Origin: Flavobacteriaceae bacterium
GTDB lineage: Bacteria; Bacteroidota; Bacteroidia; Flavobacteriales; Flavobacteriaceae
Length of the DNA: 64,000 bases
Direction: 5' to 3'
NCBI GenBank assembly: GCA_018646605.1
Contig: JABGUL010000019.1
Span: 1 to 64,000 of the forward strand
Within the stretch, counting starts at the first letter, position 1. Each line of letters starts with the position of its first letter. Under the pieces are notes generated by a model that was not told the origin of the DNA, ran no database searches, and worked only from the letters and a program-made list of their open reading frames with translations. Of the stretch, positions 1-8,045 are shown piece after piece. Made by a program: the position numbers and the translations under genes.

Positions 1-280
1 TCTACTATCCAACTTCTAACCCACTAACTAACAATTGTCCCTCGTGGGTGGTAAGGCTAACATTAACTCCTGACGTTAATACCTTGTTACTATTATATAA
101 TAATTAAACACAATGGTTGTTGTATTTTCATATAACTATTACAAAGTTAAGTGCTTGTAGAGTTTTAAGTATGGTAGTTATTAATAAGTTATTGACTTTA
201 TGAGAATAATATTAGGTAATAATTAGAAAGTGCCAAATGAGTGCCAAGAAATTGACTAACTTTATACTTAACTTAATTGT
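1..280. other. Gene-less left edge, probably the tail of a further cassette
   Basis: I see no convincing reading frame here. The only structure recognised is a pair of direct AGTGCCAA octamers (229-236 and 240-247) just before the terminator and tRNA-like copy that begin at 281. That matches the layout of the tRNA-facing ends of the two downstream modules. The stretch is therefore probably the right end of another cassette whose body lies outside the window. Confidence 0.4.
229..247 (+). repeat. Paired direct octamer AGTGCCAA, arm-like site of the off-window module
   Basis: AGTGCCAA occurs at 229-236 and again at 240-247, 11 bases start to start. The pair lies 34 bases before the terminator hairpin of the first tRNA-like copy. 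Two other boundaries in the array carry a different octamer or heptamer in the same place with 12-base spacing. By analogy with arm-type sites of tyrosine recombinases these could be recombinase binding sites; that is inference. Confidence 0.45.
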
Positions 281-309
281 AAAGAAAAACCCCTCGATTA
301 CTCGAAGGG
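281..309 (-). terminator. Intrinsic terminator attached to tRNA-like copy 1
   Basis: Read on the minus strand, CCCTTCGA, a GTAA loop and TCGAGGGG form an 8-pair stem with one G-U pair, followed by TTTTTCTTT. It sits just 3' of a tRNA-Met 3'-end copy, where the terminator of a real tRNA gene would be. Confidence 0.65.
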
Positions 310-344
310 CTTGTCTTGATTGAGCTCGCGCTTTTTCTTTGTTG

Positions 345-367
345 GTGGTCCCACCTGAACTCTAACC
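345..367 (-). repeat. tRNA-Met 3'-end copy 1 (att-like core)
   Basis: A 23-base segment beginning GTGGTCCCACCTG on the plus strand matches the 3' end of the tRNA-Met gene (2468-2490) through the acceptor stem and part of the T-arm. It differs from copy 3 at 2 of 23 positions. Its T-loop is degenerate, so it could no longer form a normal tRNA. Such partial copies mark the far end of DNA integrated into a tRNA gene. Confidence 0.6.
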
Positions 368-431
368 AAGTTAAATTTTGGTATTTAAACAATTGTTTTT
401 CAACTACTTATACTAATGTATAATTTTATAA

Positions 432-533
432 TGGAACACCAAGTGTTCCATCTATTTAAATTTAGAACATTTAGTGTTCCACTACTTCTATGGGTGTTCC
501 AAACAATTGGATTAAAAACGAATAGGTGTTCCA
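432..533. repeat. Cluster of five TGGAACAC/GTGTTCCA sites, left-end arms of module A
   Basis: TGGAACAC at 432-439 and GTGTTCCA at 443-450 form a perfect inverted pair with a 3-base centre. Further GTGTTCCA copies lie at 474-481, 494-501 and 526-533. The same octamer recurs as a direct pair at 1402-1421, at the other end of module A, and I did not see it elsewhere in the array. This placement suggests element-specific binding sites, either recombinase arms or operators. Confidence 0.55.
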
Positions 534-535
534 AA

Positions 536-558
536 GGTTCAAGTTCCAAAAGGACCAC
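536..558 (+). repeat. Inverted att-like core in module A
   Basis: The reverse complement of this 23-base stretch matches copy 3 (1488-1510) at 18 of 23 positions. The five differences are contiguous: CACCT is replaced by TTTTG. It therefore looks like the same core in opposite orientation with a different central spacer. An equivalent inverted copy lies in module B at 1626-1648, also directly after the arm-like repeats. Confidence 0.45.
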
Positions 559-587
559 ACTCTTCTAATCATTTTCTTGAGACAGAG

Positions 588-779
588 TTAATCTAAACTA
601 AACAAGTCATCTACTTTACACTCAAATATTTTTGAGAGTTTCAACCCCAACTCTAAAGAAGGAAAGTATTTATTATTCTCAATTGAGTTAATAGTTTGTC
701 TTGACACTCCCAACCTAATTGACAGGTCTTCTTGTGTCATTTTATATTTCCCTCTATACATTCTAATGTTATTATTCAT
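588..779 (-). CDS. Small Cro/CI-type (YozG-like) HTH regulator
   Basis: This 63-residue protein is essentially one helix-turn-helix domain. Residues 13-35 have the classic pattern (MTQEDLSIRLGVSRQTINSIE), followed by the NKYFPSLELGLKLSKIF helices and a VDDLF end typical of YozG-like regulators. It starts two bases after the stop of the membrane-protein gene upstream on the same strand, so the two form an operon. Such regulators are often paired with a small membrane protein of unknown role; the target is not known. Repeats in the operon promoter (1247-1298) could be its own operators. It is the cargo of the first small module beside tRNA-Met. Confidence 0.8.
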   Translation of the reverse strand: MNNNIRMYRGKYKMTQEDLSIRLGVSRQTINSIENNKYFPSLELGLKLSKIFECKVDDLFSLD

Positions 780-781
780 AA

Positions 782-1237
782 CTATGATTTGTAATGTTGG
801 TAGAGTCTATATCTAAAAATAAGATTAAATAGAAGTAGTGTAATAAACAGATTAAAAACCAAAACATACATGTAAGAAAGATTGTAAATTAAAAATGTTG
901 ATATTATTACTAAACTATAACTGATAAATAAAGACATTGTTAAACTTTCTAACCTTATTTTGGAAATTAACTCATCTTCTATTTTTTCTTTAGAAAAGGA
1001 ATTTATTAGACCTGAAATGATAATAATTGTGGTGAATATTTCATCCCCTAAACCGTTTTCTATCCAACCACCACCATAAGTCAAATCAGAAATTGACTCA
1101 GAAAACAATGAATATACATTAAGGGTAAAAAGGTCAACTATTTTATCCGTAATTAAGAGATAAAGACCAATAATTGAAGTTAAGTAAAAAACTAAACCAC
1201 TGATTTTTTTGTATTTGTTGTCAAATAAGTAATTCAT
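782..1237 (-). CDS. Small four-helix membrane protein, cargo of module A
   Basis: This 151-residue protein has about four hydrophobic segments, near residues 12-30, 68-78, 97-117 and 120-142. A polar loop containing YGGGW lies between the first two, and the C-terminus is basic. I do not recognise a named family. It is the first gene of a two-gene operon with the HTH regulator at 588-779, an arrangement seen widely in Bacteroidota and Firmicutes where the membrane protein may sense a signal or be the regulated product. The coding region is strongly AT-rich compared with the core genes beyond 3 kb. The pair sits between tRNA-Met 3'-end copies, suggesting acquired DNA. Confidence 0.7.
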   Translation of the reverse strand: MNYLFDNKYKKISGLVFYLTSIIGLYLLITDKIVDLFTLNVYSLFSESISDLTYGGGWIENGLGDEIFTTIIIISGLINSFSKEKIEDELISKIRLESLTMSLFISYSLVIISTFLIYNLSYMYVLVFNLFITLLLFNLIFRYRLYQHYKS

Positions 1238-1246
1238 TTTGTCAAA

Positions 1247-1298
1247 TGTTTTTTACAAATGTAAGTTGTTTTTTACATAATGACAAATATATTTTACA
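1247..1298 (-). promoter_or_regulatory. Promoter with direct-repeat operators for the membrane protein/HTH operon
   Basis: Two minus-strand TAnnTTTG boxes are present (complements of 1256-1263 and 1284-1291). They are interleaved with TGTTTTTTACA at 1247-1257 and 1267-1277, and a third TTTTACA at 1292-1298. The 20 to 21 base spacing places the repeats on one DNA face. Repression by the operon's own HTH protein is a reasonable inference, but no regulator has been shown. Confidence 0.45.
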
Positions 1299-1376
1299 TT
1301 TAAGACTGTTTTTGGTTCGACAATTAAGTCTTAAAAAACAAAAACCATCATAGTCAATGACTTAGAGGGTGTTTTG

Positions 1377-1399
1377 GTGGTCCTACTTGGAACTGAACC
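1377..1399 (-). repeat. tRNA-Met 3'-end copy 2, the most diverged (att-like core)
   Basis: Beginning GTGGTCCTACTTGG on the plus strand, this copy resembles the inverted cores at 536-558 and 1626-1648 more than copies 1 and 3. The 40 bases before it (about 1333-1370) still align with the terminator region of the real tRNA-Met gene, sharing the run TCAATGACTTA. It is therefore a copy of terminator plus tRNA end, probably the relic of an older insertion. Confidence 0.5.
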
Positions 1400-1401
1400 T
1401 T

Positions 1402-1421
1402 TGGAACACCATTTGGAACAC
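1402..1421 (+). repeat. Paired direct octamer TGGAACAC, right-end arms of module A
   Basis: TGGAACAC lies at 1402-1409 and 1414-1421, 12 bases start to start, just before the terminator and core of copy 3. It is the same octamer as the five-copy cluster at 432-533 on the opposite side of the module's genes. No gene starts here, so a promoter-operator role is less likely than a role in recombination. Confidence 0.5.
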
Positions 1422-1431
1422 CCACCCCTTT

Positions 1432-1483
1432 TTGAAGAAAAAAAGAACCCTAACGCCTTGATTTATAAGGGATTAGGGTTCTT
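1432..1483 (-). terminator. Strong intrinsic terminator attached to tRNA-like copy 3
   Basis: AAGAACCCTAA (1443-1453) and TTAGGGTTCTT (1473-1483) form a perfect 11-pair stem, with an inner CCTT/AAGG pairing in the loop. On the minus strand the stem is followed by seven Ts. It would terminate tRNA-Met transcripts if the DNA between copy 3 and the tRNA gene were excised. Confidence 0.7.
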
Positions 1484-1487
1484 GGGT

Positions 1488-1510
1488 GTGGTCCCACCTG
1501 AACTTGAACC
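1488..1510 (-). repeat. tRNA-Met 3'-end copy 3 (att-like core)
   Basis: This copy matches the real tRNA-Met 3' end (2468-2490) at 20 of 23 positions, including the first 13 in a row. Its minus-strand reading keeps a canonical T-loop (TTCAAGT) and a T-stem with one G-U pair. Swapping it onto the tRNA body would therefore still give a plausible tRNA. It marks the far boundary of module B. Confidence 0.65.
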
Positions 1511-1553
1511 CTCGTATTAAATAATTGATTTACAGGTGTTTATAAAACAGTGT

Positions 1554-1591
1554 GTCACTCCAGGAGTGACAAGTTATCACTCTTAGAGTGA
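1554..1591. repeat. Inverted TCACTC repeats, left-end arms of module B
   Basis: GTCACTCC-A-GGAGTGAC (1554-1570) and TCACTCT-T-AGAGTGA (1577-1591) are two adjacent perfect inverted pairs. The TCACTCT element recurs as a direct pair at 2394-2412, on the other side of the dehydrogenase gene. The layout parallels module A with a different sequence. Confidence 0.55.
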
Positions 1592-1625
1592 AGAAAAATA
1601 TTTCTATAAAACAGTCAAAATACCT

Positions 1626-1648
1626 GGTTCAGGTTCCAAAAAAACCCA
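1626..1648 (+). repeat. Inverted att-like core in module B
   Basis: The reverse complement ends in TTTTGGAACCTGAACC and matches the inverted core of module A at 18 of 23 positions. It lies just after the arm-like repeats and before the cargo gene's 3' end, the same relative place as in module A. By itself it is weak; the equivalence of position gives it value. Confidence 0.35.
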
Positions 1649-1651
1649 AAA

Positions 1652-2362
1652 TTAAAGTCTTAATAATGAGTGGGGAATTACTCTTAGTAAATTTGAAATT
1701 AATCTCCATCTTGAATCATTATAAATTATTCTTTTTCCCTTATTTATCCCTTTATATATTTTTTCACAAGTGTCATTAACAGAAGAAACCCAGAAAAACC
1801 CCTCTCCCTTTAACATGTTTGTTTTTACTGGTCCTAATCTCACATCCGTTATTTGAATATTCTTATTTAATTTACTTAATGAAATTGATAAACTTTCTAA
1901 AAAAGTAATTTGATATGATTTAGATGAGTTATATGACCCTACAAATTTTCCTCCTCTAATACCTCCAATAGAACTTAAATTGACTAACACTCCATTTTTT
2001 TTGTTTAGAAAATAGTTTGTAAAGAAATTCATGGTTTGTGTAAATCCTATAACATTTGTTTGAATAGTTTTCAAATCAATCTCTTTATCAAATTCTTTAT
2101 TTATATCACCCCAACCCGAACAATTTATTAAAATATCAATACCATTCATTTTTGATATTAAAGAGTTATAGACATCGTTTGATTTTGATGTATTACTTAC
2201 ATCTAGTCTTTCGATGAAAACATTTTGATTTGTTGATTTAATTTGGTTCAAATATTCAGTTCTTCTTCCTACTACTCCAACTTTATGTCCATTTTTAAGA
2301 TATAGATCTACTAAACCTTTTCCAATACCACTAGTCCCTCCAATTATTAAAACTTTTTTCAT
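1652..2362 (-). CDS. Short-chain dehydrogenase/reductase, cargo of module B
   Basis: This 236-residue protein is a classical SDR: a Rossmann nucleotide-binding motif GGTSGIG at residues 8-14, DV at 54-55, NCSG at 80-83 in place of NNAG, the catalytic serine at 130-131, and Tyr144-x3-Lys148. RR at 33-34 after the second strand suggests NADP rather than NAD; this is inferred. Substrate unknown. It stands alone between tRNA-like copy 3 and the tRNA-Met gene, flanked by TCACTC-type repeats, and is AT-rich like the neighbouring accessory genes. A single metabolic gene carried as the only cargo of a very small element is unusual. The C-terminus (HSLLRL) looks complete. Confidence 0.85.
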   Translation of the reverse strand: MKKVLIIGGTSGIGKGLVDLYLKNGHKVGVVGRRTEYLNQIKSTNQNVFIERLDVSNTSKSNDVYNSLISKMNGIDILINCSGWGDINKEFDKEIDLKTIQTNVIGFTQTMNFFTNYFLNKKNGVLVNLSSIGGIRGGKFVGSYNSSKSYQITFLESLSISLSKLNKNIQITDVRLGPVKTNMLKGEGFFWVSSVNDTCEKIYKGINKGKRIIYNDSRWRLISNLLRVIPHSLLRL

Positions 2363-2393
2363 AGACTAAAAAAGAATAAATATACCCAATTTA

Positions 2394-2412
2394 TCACTCT
2401 ATTTGTCACTCT
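2394..2412 (+). repeat. Paired direct heptamer TCACTCT, right-end arms of module B
   Basis: TCACTCT lies at 2394-2400 and 2406-2412, 12 bases start to start, between the dehydrogenase start and the tRNA-Met terminator. Because it is also upstream of the dehydrogenase gene it could be an operator. The same spacing and position at the two other boundaries, where no gene starts, favours a shared structural role. Confidence 0.5.
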
Positions 2413-2420
2413 ATGGTGTG

Positions 2421-2463
2421 TTGTAAAAACAAAAACCCTCTAAATCAATGACTTAAAGGGTTT
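2421..2463 (-). terminator. Intrinsic terminator of tRNA-Met
   Basis: AAACCCT (2433-2439) pairs with AGGGTTT (2457-2463). On the minus strand the stem is followed by a T-rich tract (TTGTTTTTACAA). It lies directly 3' of the tRNA gene and is related in sequence to the region before copy 2. Confidence 0.6.
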
Positions 2464-2468
2464 AAGGG

Positions 2469-2542
2469 TGGTCCCACCTGGGCTCGAACCAGGGACCAAC
2501 TGATTATGAGTCAGCTACTCTAACCAACTGAGCTATAGGACC
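2469..2542 (-). tRNA. tRNA-Met (anticodon CAT)
   Basis: The 74-base minus-strand gene folds into a full cloverleaf: acceptor GGTCCTA/TGGGACC, D-stem GCTC/GAGT, anticodon stem GCTGA/TCAGT around the loop CTCATAA, and T-arm CCTGG-TTCGAGC-CCAGG with discriminator A73. The anticodon is CAT. A paired first base (G1-C72) rules against the initiator. Elongator Met is the likely identity; tRNA-Ile2, which also has CAT before modification, cannot be excluded. CCA is not encoded. The gene is the attachment-site donor for the partial copies at 345, 1377 and 1488. Confidence 0.9.
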
Positions 2543-3010: not shown

Positions 3011-3406
3011 TTGAAGGAAAAAAAACCAGATGCAGTTGTTTGGGACGAAACTCAAGAAAGCTATATCGCAAAACTTCTGCCTTACGCTAGTAGTTTAAGC
3101 GGTCCCATTATAGAGGTTCCCAATGTAGATGCCTTCAAAAAGAAAGGCGTAGATAAGGTTTCTAAACAATTTCAAGCAGAATTAGACGATCTACAGAAAA
3201 AGATAAAATCCTTTGTCTCCCTTGCTGCTGACACTCAGAAAGTCTATTCTGCTCACTTCAAGTTTGAACCCATTGTAGGTGAAACCTACTATCTTTATCA
3301 AGGTAAAAAAGAGACTTTTCTATCTTTAATTCCGCCAGAACAATGGAGTAAAGAACATTTAGGCACCTTCCGCCTAAACGGGGATTATAAGTGGGAACGT
3401 CTATAA
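3011..3406 (+). CDS. DUF2452 family protein
   Basis: This 131-residue soluble protein belongs to a family found widely in Flavobacteriia, recognised by the start KKPDAVVW, the central coiled region (DDLQKKIKSFV), the phrase FEPIVGETYYLYQ (near 87-99) and an ending in W-E-R-L. Function unknown. The start is the TTG at 3011: the family's conserved KKPD lies right after it, and no ATG is available upstream in frame. A -7 box ends 16 bases before it. The gene is followed by rbfA on the same strand after 27 bases. Confidence 0.8.
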   Translation: MKEKKPDAVVWDETQESYIAKLLPYASSLSGPIIEVPNVDAFKKKGVDKVSKQFQAELDDLQKKIKSFVSLAADTQKVYSAHFKFEPIVGETYYLYQGKKETFLSLIPPEQWSKEHLGTFRLNGDYKWERL

Positions 3407-3433
3407 GCTCATTTTTATCCGTATTTTTGTACC

Positions 3434-3835
3434 ATGGATAAACAAGAAACACCACGGCAAAAAAAAATTAATAAGGTTTTACAACAAGAAGTTGCAACGC
3501 TTTTGCAAGGTGCAATCCGTCAAGAAAACGTCAGTAACCTAATGATCTCCGTTACTAAAGTCCATGTTACATCCGATTTAACCTCAGCCAAAATTTACCT
3601 AAGTATTTTTCCAACCCAAGATGCACAGCGACACTTTGAAGTCCTTAAAGAAAATAAATTTCAACTACGCCATGATTTGTCGCAACGGATGAAAAATCAA
3701 TTGAGAAGAGTGCCGGATCTTCAATTCTTTTTAGATGATTCCCTAGATTATATAGAATCCATAGACAACGAGTTAAAAAAAGGAAAAAACCCAATAAAAA
3801 ATCCTGAAGCATTAGAGCCTCGGCAAAAAAAATAA
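3434..3835 (+). CDS. rbfA: Ribosome-binding factor A
   Basis: RbfA binds the 30S subunit and helps mature the 5' end of 16S rRNA, especially in the cold. The 133-residue protein has the family's N-terminal ...RQKKINKVLQQEV... helix, the VTKVHVTSDLTSAKIYLS strand pair (near 40-57), the L-R-x-x-L-S-x-R-M helix (near 75-87), and the RVPDLQFFLDDSLDY end. A TATTTTTG box ends 5 bases before the ATG, so either the transcript is almost leaderless or the gene is read from the DUF2452 promoter. The permease gene follows after 27 bases and is probably cotranscribed. Confidence 0.95.
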   Translation: MDKQETPRQKKINKVLQQEVATLLQGAIRQENVSNLMISVTKVHVTSDLTSAKIYLSIFPTQDAQRHFEVLKENKFQLRHDLSQRMKNQLRRVPDLQFFLDDSLDYIESIDNELKKGKNPIKNPEALEPRQKK

Positions 3836-3862
3836 AGTGCTTTTAAAAACTAAAAATTGAGC

Positions 3863-5074
3863 ATGACGTATTCTCTAAAAATCGCATTGCGTTATTTTTT
3901 TTCTAAAAGTCAGCAAACGGTAATCAACCGTATTAATGGCTTTGCCCTTTTTATGGTGGTGGTCGCAACTGCAGCACTGTTTATCGTTTTAAGTGCTTTT
4001 GCGGGGCTAAAAGATTTTGGCCTTTCCTTTACGAACTCCTTTGACCCGGATTTTGAAATCCAAGCCATACAAGGAAAATATCTTACCCTTGAAAACAATA
4101 CACTCAGTCAAATTGAAGCCCTTGAACAAATTGATGCAGCAGCCCCTGAAATTGAAGAAAAAGTATTTCTTTCTTTCAAAGAAAAAAATCAAGTGGCCTA
4201 TCTCAAGGCGGTAGGACCAAGATATATTAATGTGGTGGAGGTTGATCAACTTATTGCCCTGGGCGATTGGCTTTCTTTTTCAGGTTCAGAGGCTGTTTTG
4301 GGATTTGGTATTGCAGGTAGTTTAAGCGTAGGTGTTTTTGACTATAATACCTTTTTGAATGTTACCGTTCCAAAAAAAAATCAGAAATCCCTATTAGGAC
4401 AAGACCCTTTTGTCACTATGCCCAGCGTTGTAGTAGGATTATATCAAATCAGTGAGGATTTAGATAAAAAATATGTGTTTTCTAATCTTGAGTTTGGTCA
4501 AAAGCTCCTAGAGTTGGAAGCAAATCAATATTCTTCCTTAGTCATAAAAACAAAAGGAGCTGTAAATAAGGAAGTGTTACTTCCCTTGCTGTCTCCTTTT
4601 TTTAAAGAACCTATTCGTTTGGTTTCGCGCTCAGAACAAAATGCTGCACTTTATAAAATGCTAAATGTAGAACATCTTGCAATCTATTTTATTTTTACTT
4701 TGGTTATGATTATCGCTTTGTTTAATGTCGTTGGTGCGCTAATCATGATGATTTTAGACAAAAAGGGGCAACTTAAAATATTATTGGCAATGGGAGCGCA
4801 GCCAAGAGGAATTCATCAAATTTTCTTTACAATTGGTTTGCTGATTTGTGGTGTTGGAGGAATTATTGGATTAGTCATAGGAGTATTAATTGTTATTCTT
4901 CAGGACCATTTCCCTATTATTTATGTGCCTGGAACTTCCCTAGCTTATCCTGTGTTATTTGAGTTAAAAAATATTGCGATCGTTCTAGGAACACTGCTTA
5001 TTTTAGGGACCATCAGTACAGCTTGGGCAACGAGAGGATTGGTAAAAAAAGTAAAGGCTTATGCCATTTCTTGA
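3863..5074 (+). CDS. LolC/LolE-type ABC transporter permease (FtsX-like)
   Basis: The 403-residue inner-membrane protein has the MacB/FtsX layout: one N-terminal helix (about 23-45), a large periplasmic domain, then three helices near 270-300, 315-350 and 370-395, with the LolC/E-like sequence LGxxxxTI near the end. By family it would move lipoproteins out of the inner membrane together with a LolD ATPase encoded elsewhere. The start ATG at 3863 is preferred over the TTG six bases upstream because homologues begin near TYSLKIALRYFFSK. The 3' end overlaps the convergent dusB gene by 16 bases. A generic lipoprotein-release permease assignment is safe; the exact paralogue is not. Confidence 0.85.
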   Translation: MTYSLKIALRYFFSKSQQTVINRINGFALFMVVVATAALFIVLSAFAGLKDFGLSFTNSFDPDFEIQAIQGKYLTLENNTLSQIEALEQIDAAAPEIEEKVFLSFKEKNQVAYLKAVGPRYINVVEVDQLIALGDWLSFSGSEAVLGFGIAGSLSVGVFDYNTFLNVTVPKKNQKSLLGQDPFVTMPSVVVGLYQISEDLDKKYVFSNLEFGQKLLELEANQYSSLVIKTKGAVNKEVLLPLLSPFFKEPIRLVSRSEQNAALYKMLNVEHLAIYFIFTLVMIIALFNVVGALIMMILDKKGQLKILLAMGAQPRGIHQIFFTIGLLICGVGGIIGLVIGVLIVILQDHFPIIYVPGTSLAYPVLFELKNIAIVLGTLLILGTISTAWATRGLVKKVKAYAIS

Positions 5075-6051
5075 GCAGAAAAATGCTCAATAATTTCATC
5101 GAAAACTTCGAAAACACCCGCCGAATCATTGGATGTGACCATGCGTGTTCGCAACGGTTTAAAATTGGGTATTCCTTTAAAATAATTAGTATAATGGCGT
5201 CGTGTCTCCAAAACTCCTTGAATTTCTCCTTTCCAATCAATAGCCATTTCTAAATGCCTTCTTGCTACAGCAACACGATCTTCAATGGAGGGTGCAGCAG
5301 CATATGTGCCGGTTTCAAAAAAATGTTTTACTTCATTAAAAAACCAAGGATTTCCGATACTTGCTCGTCCAATCATCGCGCCATCTAAACCAAACTCATC
5401 GCGCATCAATTTTGCCTTTTCTGGAGAGTCAACATCGCCATTTCCAAAAATGGGGATCTGCATGCGTTGGTTGTTTTTTACCTCAGCAATCGGATGCCAA
5501 TTGGCATCCCCCTTATACATTTGCGCACGGGTTCTTCCATGAATAGAAATTGCTTTAGCACCTGCATCTTGAAGGCGTTCGGCTACTTCCACAATTTTTA
5601 TGGAGGCATCGTCCCATCCCAATCTTGTTTTCACCGTTATAGGCAAATGGGTATGCTTGGCCATCGCTTCTGTAAGTTTAACCATCAACGGAATGTCTTT
5701 TAAAATGCCTGCTCCGGCTCCTTTACTCACCACTTTTTTTACCGGACACCCAAAATTAATATCAATGATGTCGGGATTTGACGCTTCGACAATCTCAACT
5801 GATCGAAGCATAGAGTCTAGGTTTGCCCCAAAAATTTGGATGCCTACAGGACGTTCCTTTTCATAAATGTCAAGTTTTTGAACACTCTTTGCGGCATCTC
5901 TTATCAGCCCTTCTGAGGAAATGAATTCAGTATAAACAACATCTGCTCCCAGCTCTTTACATAGAGCTCTAAAAGGAGGGTCACTAACATCCTCCATGGG
6001 TGCAAGCAAAAGCGGAAAGTCGCTTAATTCTATGTCGCCAATTTTAACCAA
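5059..6051 (-). CDS. dusB: tRNA-dihydrouridine synthase B
   Basis: This FMN-dependent enzyme reduces uridine to dihydrouridine in the tRNA D-loop. The 330-residue protein is full length. It shows the N-terminal LAPMEDVSD flavin motif (residues 16-24), the catalytic cysteine in NFGCPVKKV (Cys102), the substrate-site KTRLGW segment (near 141-146), GNGDV (near 190-194) and the MIGRASIGNPW FMN phosphate loop. It is convergent with and slightly overlaps the permease gene, and divergent from lepA with a 197-base gap. Confidence 0.95.
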   Translation of the reverse strand: MVKIGDIELSDFPLLLAPMEDVSDPPFRALCKELGADVVYTEFISSEGLIRDAAKSVQKLDIYEKERPVGIQIFGANLDSMLRSVEIVEASNPDIIDINFGCPVKKVVSKGAGAGILKDIPLMVKLTEAMAKHTHLPITVKTRLGWDDASIKIVEVAERLQDAGAKAISIHGRTRAQMYKGDANWHPIAEVKNNQRMQIPIFGNGDVDSPEKAKLMRDEFGLDGAMIGRASIGNPWFFNEVKHFFETGTYAAAPSIEDRVAVARRHLEMAIDWKGEIQGVLETRRHYTNYFKGIPNFKPLRTRMVTSNDSAGVFEVFDEIIEHFSAQEMA

Positions 6052-6217
6052 AATTATTTTTTTGTCAAAAATAAAGAAAAGGAGTGGTTTTTAAACCAAT
6101 TACTTTCTTTCAAGGTTGCTTATCCTGTCTTTATTAGGTCCTGATCTCCAGATGAGACAAGCATAGTAAAGACTGAAAAAAGAAAGCTAATGTTAAAAAA
6201 CACACCTTCCAAAGCCG

Positions 6218-6225
6218 TATATTTG
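6218..6225 (+). promoter_or_regulatory. -7 box TATATTTG of lepA
   Basis: A perfect TAnnTTTG match 23 bases before the lepA ATG, giving a short leader of about 15 bases. Confidence 0.55.
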
Positions 6226-6248
6226 CGCCCAGCAAAGAAATTGCCGAA

Positions 6249-8045
6249 ATGAAAAATATTCGAAACTTCTGTATTATTGCCCATATTGATCATGGGAAAA
6301 GCACACTGGCCGATCGCCTTTTGGACTTTACCGGAGCAGTAACAGAGCGTGAAAAGCAAAATCAGCTTTTGGATAATATGGACTTAGAACGTGAACGTGG
6401 GATTACCATAAAGTCTCACGCGATTCAAATGGAATATACCCAAGAGGGTGAAACCTATGTGCTCAACCTAATTGATACTCCTGGTCATGTCGATTTTTCC
6501 TATGAAGTTTCCCGATCTATAGCCGCTTGTGAAGGAGCCCTTTTAGTGGTTGATGCCGCACAAAGTATCCAAGCACAAACCATTTCAAATTTATATCTGG
6601 CTCTAGAAAATGATTTAGAAATTATTCCTGTGCTCAATAAGGTAGACCTCCCCTCAGCAAATGTTGAAGAGGTAACAGATGATATTGTAGATTTATTAGG
6701 GTGCAGTCCCGATGAAATTATACCTGCCTCTGCAAAAACAGGCCTCGGTATACAAGAAATTATTACCGCTATTATTAGCCGAGTCCCTTCACCAAAAGGA
6801 AGTGTAGATGCTCCCTTACAGGCATTAATTTTTGATTCCGTTTACAATCCTTTCCGCGGCGTTGAAACCTATTTTAGAATTTTGAATGGCTCAATTAGAA
6901 AGGGACAAAAAATTCAATTTATGGCAACTGGGAAAACCTACAATGCCGACGAAATTGGAACCTTAAAATTAACACAACAAGCCAAACAAAAAATCAATGC
7001 TGGTGACGTAGGTTACCTCATCACTGGGATTAAAGAGGCTAAAGAAATAAAAGTTGGAGATACGATCACAGATCCTGAATTCCCTACGACCAAAGCTATT
7101 TCGGGTTTTGAAGAAGTTAAGCCTATGGTCTTTGCAGGGATTTATCCTGTTGATACAGAAGAATATGAAGAGCTACGTACTTCCATGGAAAAATTACAAC
7201 TTAACGATGCTTCTTTAGTTTTTACCCCAGAAAGTTCTGCCGCTTTAGGCTTTGGGTTCCGTTGTGGCTTTTTGGGAATGCTACATTTAGAAATTATTCA
7301 AGAGCGTTTGGAGCGAGAATTTGACATGACAGTAATTACGACCGTTCCCAATGTTTCGTATCACGCCTTCACCAAAAAAAATCCCGATGAGATTTTATTG
7401 GTAAATAACCCTTCTGACCTTCCTGACCCTTCTTTTATGGACCGCGTAGAAGAACCTTACATTAAGGCTACAATTATTACAAAATCTGAGTTTGTCGGAA
7501 ATGTAATGTCACTTTGTATTGAAAAAAGAGGACAAATAACAAACCAAACTTACTTGACTCCAGAAAGGGTTGAGTTAAGTTTTGATATGCCTTTGGCTGA
7601 AATTGTCTTTGATTTTTATGATCGCTTAAAAACTGTATCCAAAGGATATGCCTCTTTTGATTATGCTCCCATTGGGCTGCGTCCATCAAAATTAGTAAAG
7701 GTTGATATACTATTAAATGCCAGTCCTGTCGATGCTTTGTCTGCATTAATTCACACTGATAACGCTTACAGTATTGGTAAAAAAATGTGTGAAAAATTAC
7801 GTCAACTCATCCCTAGGCAGCAGTTTGATATTCCCATTCAAGCGGCGATAGGTGCGAAAATTATTTCTAGAGAAACAATCAAAGCCCTACGAAAAGATGT
7901 AACCGCTAAATGTTATGGAGGAGATATTTCACGTAAAAGAAAACTCCTTGAAAAACAGAAAAAAGGGAAAAAGAAAATGCGCCAAATTGGTAATGTTGAA
8001 ATTCCACAACAAGCATTTATGGCAGTTTTAAAACTGAACGATTAA
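6249..8045 (+). CDS. lepA: Elongation factor 4 (LepA)
   Basis: LepA is a ribosome-bound GTPase thought to back-translocate or remodel stalled ribosomes and to assist 30S assembly. The 598-residue protein is full length. It has the P-loop AHIDHGKST (residues 11-19), the switch region [27 protein letters not shown], the EF-G-like domains II, III and V, and the LepA-specific basic C-terminal region with [22 protein letters not shown] (about 565-586). It stands alone behind its own promoter; an acetyltransferase gene follows after 69 bases. Confidence 0.97.

Follow-up and report, generated by a model that had tools for sequence, protein, structure and literature searches.

Small integrase-less modules stacked at a tRNA-Met gene of Flavobacteriaceae and their probable mobilisation in trans

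The window, a 64,000-nucleotide stretch of a Flavobacteriaceae genome, carries two integrase-less modules of 980 and 1,143 bp on the 3′ side of a tRNA-Met gene, together with the right end of a third. We interpret the array as non-autonomous integrative cassettes that are stacked at the tRNA-Met 3′ end and mobilised in trans, and assign this reading a probability of about 0.8. The original prediction of tRNA-linked, stacked, non-autonomous elements with their recombinase elsewhere is supported by the gain and loss of modules in relatives and by a matching integrase family.

Anatomy of the array

Each module opens on the left with GTGGTCCCACCTG, which copies 13 bp of the tRNA end, followed by inverted "arm" repeats, and on the right the left-arm motif returns as a direct doublet (12-bp period) with a terminator. 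The same core, common to the modules, lies within the tRNA-Met gene at 2468–2480. The features are:

229–344, plus: right end of element C (AGTGCCAA doublet, period 11, and terminator); the remainder lies past the contig end
345–1487: module A, 1,143 bp from core to core, with matching GGAACAC arms at both ends
345–367, plus: module A left core (GTGGTCCCACCTG and AACTCTAACC)
433–480: module A left arm palindromes (GGAACACcaaGTGTTCC, AGAACATttaGTGTTCC)
536–556, plus: module A inverted core-like internal site GGTTCAAGTTCCAAAAGGACC, 0 mismatches to the motif
588–779, minus: module A cargo, HTH_3 regulator of 63 aa (PF01381, 5e-13)
782–1237, minus: module A cargo, membrane-like protein of 151 aa, no family match in the profile search
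1312–1399, plus: older right end, decayed and nested in module A (one GGTTCGA arm, a terminator and the degenerate core at 1377–1399)
1403–1422, plus: module A right arm doublet, period 12 (GGAACACCatttGGAACACC)
1443–1483: module A terminator-like hairpin (inverted repeat)
1488–2467: module B, 980 bp from core to core, with a TCACTC motif in the left palindromes and right doublet
1488–1510, plus: module B left core (GTGGTCCCACCTG and AACTTGAACC), 3 mismatches to the tRNA end
1554–1591: module B left arm palindromes (GTCACTCcagGAGTGAC, ATCACTCttAGAGTGA)
1626–1646, plus: module B inverted core-like internal site, 2 mismatches to the motif
1652–2362, minus: module B cargo, short-chain dehydrogenase of 236 aa (PF00106, 1.1e-30)
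2393–2412, plus: module B right arm doublet, period 12 (ATCACTCTatttGTCACTCT)
2431–2463: module B terminator-like hairpin (inverted repeat), matching the G028 and G030 right ends at 97% identity
2467–2542, minus: tRNA-Met gene, the integration target (ARAGORN; Rfam tRNA, E=4e-14)

Three copies of the tRNA-Met 3′ end in a single orientation had been predicted, and all three are real. Those at 345–367 and 1488–1510 each have 3 mismatches in 23 positions and the degenerate copy at 1377–1399 has 6, compared with a best match of at least 7 mismatches in every one of 300 first-order resamplings of positions 1–2460. When two variable positions are masked, the copies at 345–367 and 1488–1510 show 1 mismatch, and the expected number of such matches is 0.00. 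Chance resemblance to the tRNA end is ruled out by the masked expectation and the resampling together.

The array had been divided into three units with a boundary at 1377; it consists instead of two complete modules and the end of a third. The copy at 1377–1399 is excluded as a separate cassette edge and closes the decayed right end nested inside module A, which (at about 1312–1399) shares 88.6% identity with the right end of G008 and 86%, over 79 bp, with that of G319. Module A's own right end is at 1403–1487, and further single GTGTTCC copies lie near 494 and 526. In module B the internal site sits just past the stop of the cargo gene, and the hairpin at 2431–2463, which arrived with the module, is now downstream of tRNA-Met. 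The right end of element C is 92.8% identical to a right end in G020 that directly abuts tRNA-Met; the contig begins at window position 1.

The predicted lack of a recombinase gene between the copies was borne out by an ORF and profile search of the window array. Only the tRNA scored above the Rfam gathering score, and PADLOC returned generic HTH matches only for the window cargo. The earlier reading overlooked the terminators and arm repeats, as well as the inverted sites at 536–556 and 1626–1646 and the right end at 229–344.

Modules in relatives: precise insertion, transfer and cargo reassortment

At least 20 modules of the same design, 0.65–7 kb in size, occupy the same tRNA-Met in relatives, many of which are single-cell genomes; the recombinase-free ones are mostly 0.65–2.5 kb. 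The left-core pattern was found in 8 of 400 family genomes, representing 7 genera, and the reversed-pattern control gave zero among the matches listed. Among GTDB contigs it occurs in 31 stretches, most of them from pelagic Flavobacteriaceae and many named as single-cell isolates. Of 68 right ends, 35 contain perfect direct 7-mers with a period of 12, compared with 1.4% of control windows; of 31 left ends, 23 contain inverted 7-mers separated by 3 bp, compared with 0.7% of controls. Within a module the left and right arm motifs agree, with an observed score of 357 against 291 ± 7.5 in permutations; the maximum in 100,000 permutations was 324, and none reached the observed value. The ends of two modules, G030 and L140 at 1949, do not match, and some modules are therefore hybrids.

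Modules are gained and lost at the tRNA-Met locus in relatives, with junctions that are base-precise at the core, in keeping with the original prediction. Removal of positions 358–2480 in silico leaves the window 96.4% identical to the G020 locus, and similar removal of a 4.39-kb restriction-modification module from G369 leaves it 99.0% identical to G187, of the same genus. Transfer between genera is evident from a 1,150-bp module that is 99.5% identical in G028 and G319, members of two different genera whose dusB identity is 74.7% at the DNA level and 69.7% at the protein level. The near-identity ends at the core and the flanks differ on both sides; in G319 an extra 760-bp module lies between the 1,150-bp module and the tRNA. 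In several genera, units of 0.65–1.2 kb with intact cargo share 93–99.5% DNA identity, as compared with 72–77% for dusB.

Cargo reassorts as well. It changes at or beside the inverted site between G119 and G028 and between L137 and G369, two cargo genes are found both alone and fused in either order, and an inverted core-like site lies 118–191 bp into 21 of 31 left ends compared with 2.3% of controls, although the motif was built from these same module sequences. It might thus be the gene together with its internal inverted site that is mobile, through exchange of the integron kind, with the tRNA-bounded module a mere container. We consider this rather doubtful: the two fusions differ in their junctions, the G029b fusion has lost the site, and the G030 breakpoint is about 40 bp upstream of the inverted site, so that deletion within tandem arrays explains the fusions too.

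It is improbable that the modules are decayed remnants, that is, islands that once had an integrase, lost genes by deletion and persist as immobile scars at the tRNA. Some ends are indeed decayed (1312–1399), several outer right ends are without doublets, and most tRNA-Met loci of the genus lack an integrase of the helper family described below; however, the ends of inserted modules are intact, and remnants would not stay near-identical between genera, as the 0.65–1.2-kb units do. Still less probable is movement by homologous recombination of the chromosomal flanks with no site-specific recombinase now at work, an exchange for which the conserved flanks of the tRNA and the tandem repeats could provide homology, but which is at odds with insertions that stop exactly at the 13-bp core and with the confinement of G028/G319 near-identity to the module.

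A candidate helper and the proposed mechanism

A 515–550-aa tyrosine recombinase (Arm-DNA-bind_5 / SAM_5 / Phage_integrase) encoded by rare relatives is, judged from sequence, the likely helper of the modules. Arm-DNA-bind_5 integrases adjoin the same tRNA-Met (G025, G090 and G338), tRNA-Phe, tRNA-Val or tRNA-Asp, and a period-12 arm doublet lies between the integrase start and the tRNA at those loci. The 8.48-kb G025 element has a palindromic left end too, and both of its ends follow the module design. In G025, G090, G019 and G338 an intact catalytic domain is joined to an arm-binding domain and arm repeats flank the core; the window modules themselves encode no such protein. Only a few arm types could be paired with an integrase whose arms match closely, namely GGTACCC/AGTACCC, and (A/G)GAACAC at tRNA-Asp in G354. 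The differing arm motifs suggest differing helpers.

The search for a helper inside the source genome gave no member of the family at E≤1e-15; the genome has only two PF00589 matches and two other Arm-DNA-bind_5 proteins, the latter two without an adjacent tRNA at the loci examined. The helper matches the integron-integrase-like XerA model weakly (23 bits; cut-off 220), and the integrases related to it in phages and plasmids share only 22–31% identity; for P0001, viral contigs gave no close match, and one 23% match with the alignment. No carrier for the modules was found among viral contigs and phage records, where the pattern search gave two matches, both without a tRNA or second core; the common cargo gene is encoded by none of the records searched, and no phage DNA similar to the modules was found. 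An analogous left-core pattern for tRNA-Phe mini-modules gave nothing in 400 genomes beyond an apparent tRNA variant.

We propose that in each cassette one or two genes are enclosed by what would be the complete attachment site of an arm-type tyrosine recombinase. In a circularised cassette the right end (doublet and terminator), the 13-bp core and the palindromic left end would together form a full attP. The Arm-DNA-bind_5 recombinase, supplied in trans, would bind the arms and recombine the core with the tRNA gene; insertion would preserve the tRNA end and set the cassette terminator behind the tRNA, and each new insertion would shift older cassettes outward. Movement itself, passage through circular forms, the identity of the helper and the route from cell to cell are inferred from comparison of genomes. 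It is possible, and we suggest it tentatively, that this is a cassette-shuffling system distinct from integrons, in which the tRNA-Met 3′ end would be the dock and the standard ends the carrier, with cargo swapped via inverted sites (GGTTnnRGTYC-N5-GGACY) and arm-specific tyrosine recombinases arriving transiently. If so, streamlined ocean bacteria would have a pool of one-gene mobile units.

To our knowledge, the acquisition of single genes by streamlined, largely uncultured ocean bacteria is poorly understood, and the modules offer a concrete vehicle: they are small enough for one gene, dock at a defined site, have recognisable ends and a candidate enzyme, and cross between genera. The arm motif at each end should allow helper and passenger to be predicted from sequence, and the movement of integrase-less islands in general thereby becomes directly testable. 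The sequence signature should also allow many more such units to be found, some with restriction-modification systems.

Comparison with known systems

Ca. Methylopumilus additive islands at tRNA-Lys, which are associated with repeats of the final 20 bp of that gene (PMC10872708), are the closest phenomenon. They differ in phylum and in tRNA, and arm sites, a helper integrase and cargo exchange are not described in the available portion of that source. Islands of the Methylophilaceae, as given there, are bounded by tRNA 3′-end repeats and span 330 bp–42 kb and 1–63 genes (PMC10872708); the original statement that elements this small were not described was thus too strong. Tycheposons likewise are linked to tRNA genes (tRNA-Met among them), occur in streamlined marine bacteria and use tyrosine recombinases, but they are reported to span 4–200 kb and to include the recombinase (cited in PMC10872708), whereas modules of the window type are mostly 0.65–2.5 kb and recombinase-free; elements of the G025 type would agree with tycheposons in both size and recombinase. 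The ssrA-specific islands of Dehalococcoides are in tandem, with 20-bp RNA-gene repeats between them, and many are without integration genes (PMC3146451), but they involve a serine recombinase and the vcr islands are about 12 kb.

CIMEs are described as decayed ICEs or IMEs that lack integration genes, keep their att sites and form tandem stacks where a target gene ends (its 3′ end); accretion with an element that arrives later mobilises them (PMC5704250). The window modules similarly keep att sites at both ends without integrase or transfer genes; what differs is that here units of a single gene, each end with its arm sites intact, recur across genera and reassort their cargo. CALINs are integrase-less arrays of small single-gene units served by a tyrosine recombinase in trans (PMC11389934), and integron cassettes and CALINs carry similar kinds of cargo, but the modules here are bounded by a tRNA-derived core and arm-type sites and each has its own terminator. 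The modules resemble CIMEs or CALINs in logic, but they are tiny and their cargo is interchangeable.

Copies of the tRNA-Met end and module anatomy

Base 1 of the contig (G000:C34; genome 1.98 Mb) is also the first base of the window. Three degenerate copies of the tRNA-Met 3' end had been noted beside the gene, and all three are present; they are not chance similarities, as they carry 3, 3 and 6 mismatches, versus at least 7 for the best match in each of 300 resamplings of 1-2460. The copy at 1377-1399, proposed as the edge of a separate cassette, instead closes a decayed right end nested within module A; this decayed end has 89% identity to an intact right end in a relative (G008).

Features of the tRNA-Met locus
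2467-2542, minus: tRNA-Met, upstream of an rbfA-like gene
345-367: copy of tRNA-Met 3' end, 3 mismatches in 23
1488-1510: copy of tRNA-Met 3' end, 3 mismatches in 23
1377-1399: copy of tRNA-Met 3' end, 6 mismatches; closes the decayed right end in module A (arm type GGTTCGA)
345-1487: module A, arm motif GGAACAC
1488-2467: module B, arm motif TCACTC
Left of 345: right end of a third element (C), GTGCCAA doublet
536-556 (module A) and 1626-1646 (module B): inverted core-like sites, directly past the stop of the last cargo gene

As read from the sequence, a left end opens with the core GTGGTCCCACCTG (13 bp), continues with roughly 10 bp unlike the tRNA (typically nnCTnnAACC) and then shows a 7-bp motif in one or two palindromic pairs. 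At the right end two direct copies of the motif stand at a period of 12, followed by a terminator-like hairpin and then either the tRNA or the following core. Of the 68 right ends collected, 35 contain perfect 7-bp direct repeats with a period of 12, versus 1.4% of random windows drawn from these loci; other periods are at background except period 11 (6/68). Among left ends, 23 of 31 contain inverted 7-mers separated by 3 bp, versus 0.7% of controls. Left-end motifs fit the right-end motif of their own module far better than those of other modules (n = 22; score 357 versus 291 ± 7.5 permuted, the highest of 100,000 permutations being 324), some modules being homologous to one another and so not fully independent. 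An imperfect 34-bp inverted repeat (525-558/1377-1410), comprising arm motif and core-like site, flanks the module A genes on both sides and could be a trace of past inversion.

Spread, gain and loss, and cargo

The tRNA-Met loci of the genus were extracted via rbfA, and left cores differing from the tRNA were searched for more widely; all relatives are draft genomes. Such cores were found in 8 of 400 family genomes (7 genera) and in 31 stretches of named GTDB contigs, mostly pelagic Flavobacteriaceae or Bacteroidetes and many with single-cell-type isolate names (e.g. AG-891-I06, AG-916-A19, AG-916-G20, AG-920-B11); a few matches from unrelated Promicromonospora, Poseidonia and Flavobacterium profundi look like chance. 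Core-to-core sizes are 641, 653, 653, 708, 760, 854, 980, 1143, 1150 (twice), 1154, 1170, 1227, 1485, 1505, 1877, 2331, 2342, 2344 (twice), 2474, 4390, 5755 and 7129 bp, with one more copy of 652 bp in G187.

Gain and loss of modules with junctions at the core, as originally predicted, is borne out by in silico deletions. Removing 358-2480 from the window joins the right end of element C to the tRNA and gives 96.4% identity to the G020 locus with one gap column; removing one 4.39-kb module from G369 gives 99.0% identity to its congener G187. A 1,150-bp module is 99.5% identical between G028 and G319, which belong to different genera (dusB DNA identity 74.7%), with unlike flanks and, in G319, an additional 760-bp module between it and the tRNA.

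Gene 1 of this module adjoins tRNA-Met or its 13-bp core in all copies that were examined. It forms 641-653-bp modules alone (G187, G369, L137, L140), as gene 2 does a 708-bp module (G119); together they stand in the order 1-2 in G028, G319 and G030 and reversed in G029. In these fusions the junction between the upstream unit's right arm and the downstream unit lies at the internal site or next to it; terminator, core and left end are lost. The internal site GGTTnnRGTYCnnnnnGGACY (≤1 mismatch) matches 21 of 31 left ends, from which it was itself derived, versus 2.3% of controls, and is inverted relative to the tRNA core in all 21; it may be used by a recombinase or may only mark deletion endpoints.

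Cargo, some of it named by sequence reading alone, includes SDR, GNAT acetyltransferase, DUF1572, DUF1569-like, YHYH and acyltransferase-like proteins, FkbM and class I methyltransferases, BspA-like repeats and restriction-modification systems. One such system occupies a single module in each of L134 (oriented 3841-6315; EcoO109I-like nuclease plus cytosine methylase) and L125 (oriented 3276-7666; two methylase domains in one frame plus a partner protein). In L141 (oriented 3203-7878), lipoprotein genes with BspA-like GDISNWDVSNV repeats occur in two neighbouring modules, one gene per module, and point in opposite directions.

Candidate helper integrases and a possible second element class

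In G025 the first gene beside tRNA-Met encodes a 533-aa tyrosine recombinase (Arm-DNA-bind_5, Phage_int_SAM_5 and Phage_integrase domains) in an element of about 8.5 kb with a mutated left core and palindromic left end. Its relatives in G090 and G338 adjoin the same tRNA, with 87-94% DNA identity across genera versus 73-75% for dusB. The residues R..HxGR..H..Y can be read in the alignment. Family members at tRNA-Phe, tRNA-Val and tRNA-Asp carry a period-12 doublet in the stretch from gene start to tRNA, its motifs including AGTACCC, GGTACCC, GGAACAA and (A/G)GAACAC. Close integrase counterparts exist for GGTACCC (mini-modules of G041 and L140) and GGAACAC (module A); for most other arm types none was found among these integrases.

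G338 (C2; L179, L185) carries two integrases of the candidate helper family, at tRNA-Met (AGTACCC arms) and tRNA-Phe (GGAACAA arms). The window's own genome encodes two Arm-DNA-bind_5 proteins of other recombinase subfamilies (374 and 447 aa; G000:C22:1402 and G000:C10:4241), with no tRNA near them in the fetched loci (L160, L167); they may act as helpers.

In L053, L062 and L065 (G037, G028 and G036), the gene nearest tRNA-Met or the outer core encodes a small protein whose HVHMLxDT motif recalls HUH replication initiators and whose only Pfam match is weak (PF21578); each such gene adjoins the right end of a GGGACAAAT-armed element. This arrangement suggests a second, possibly rolling-circle, element class at tRNA-Met.

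Comparison with known systems

In the literature searched, neither arm-site matching nor a defined helper family nor exchange of cargo on this scale came up. Tiny tRNA-bounded units do exist elsewhere, since the additive islands at tRNA-Lys of Methylophilaceae range from 330 bp to 42 kb (PMC10872708). In logic the modules resemble CIMEs (PMC5704250) and CALINs (PMC11389934), passengers that carry recombination sites while others provide the recombinase.
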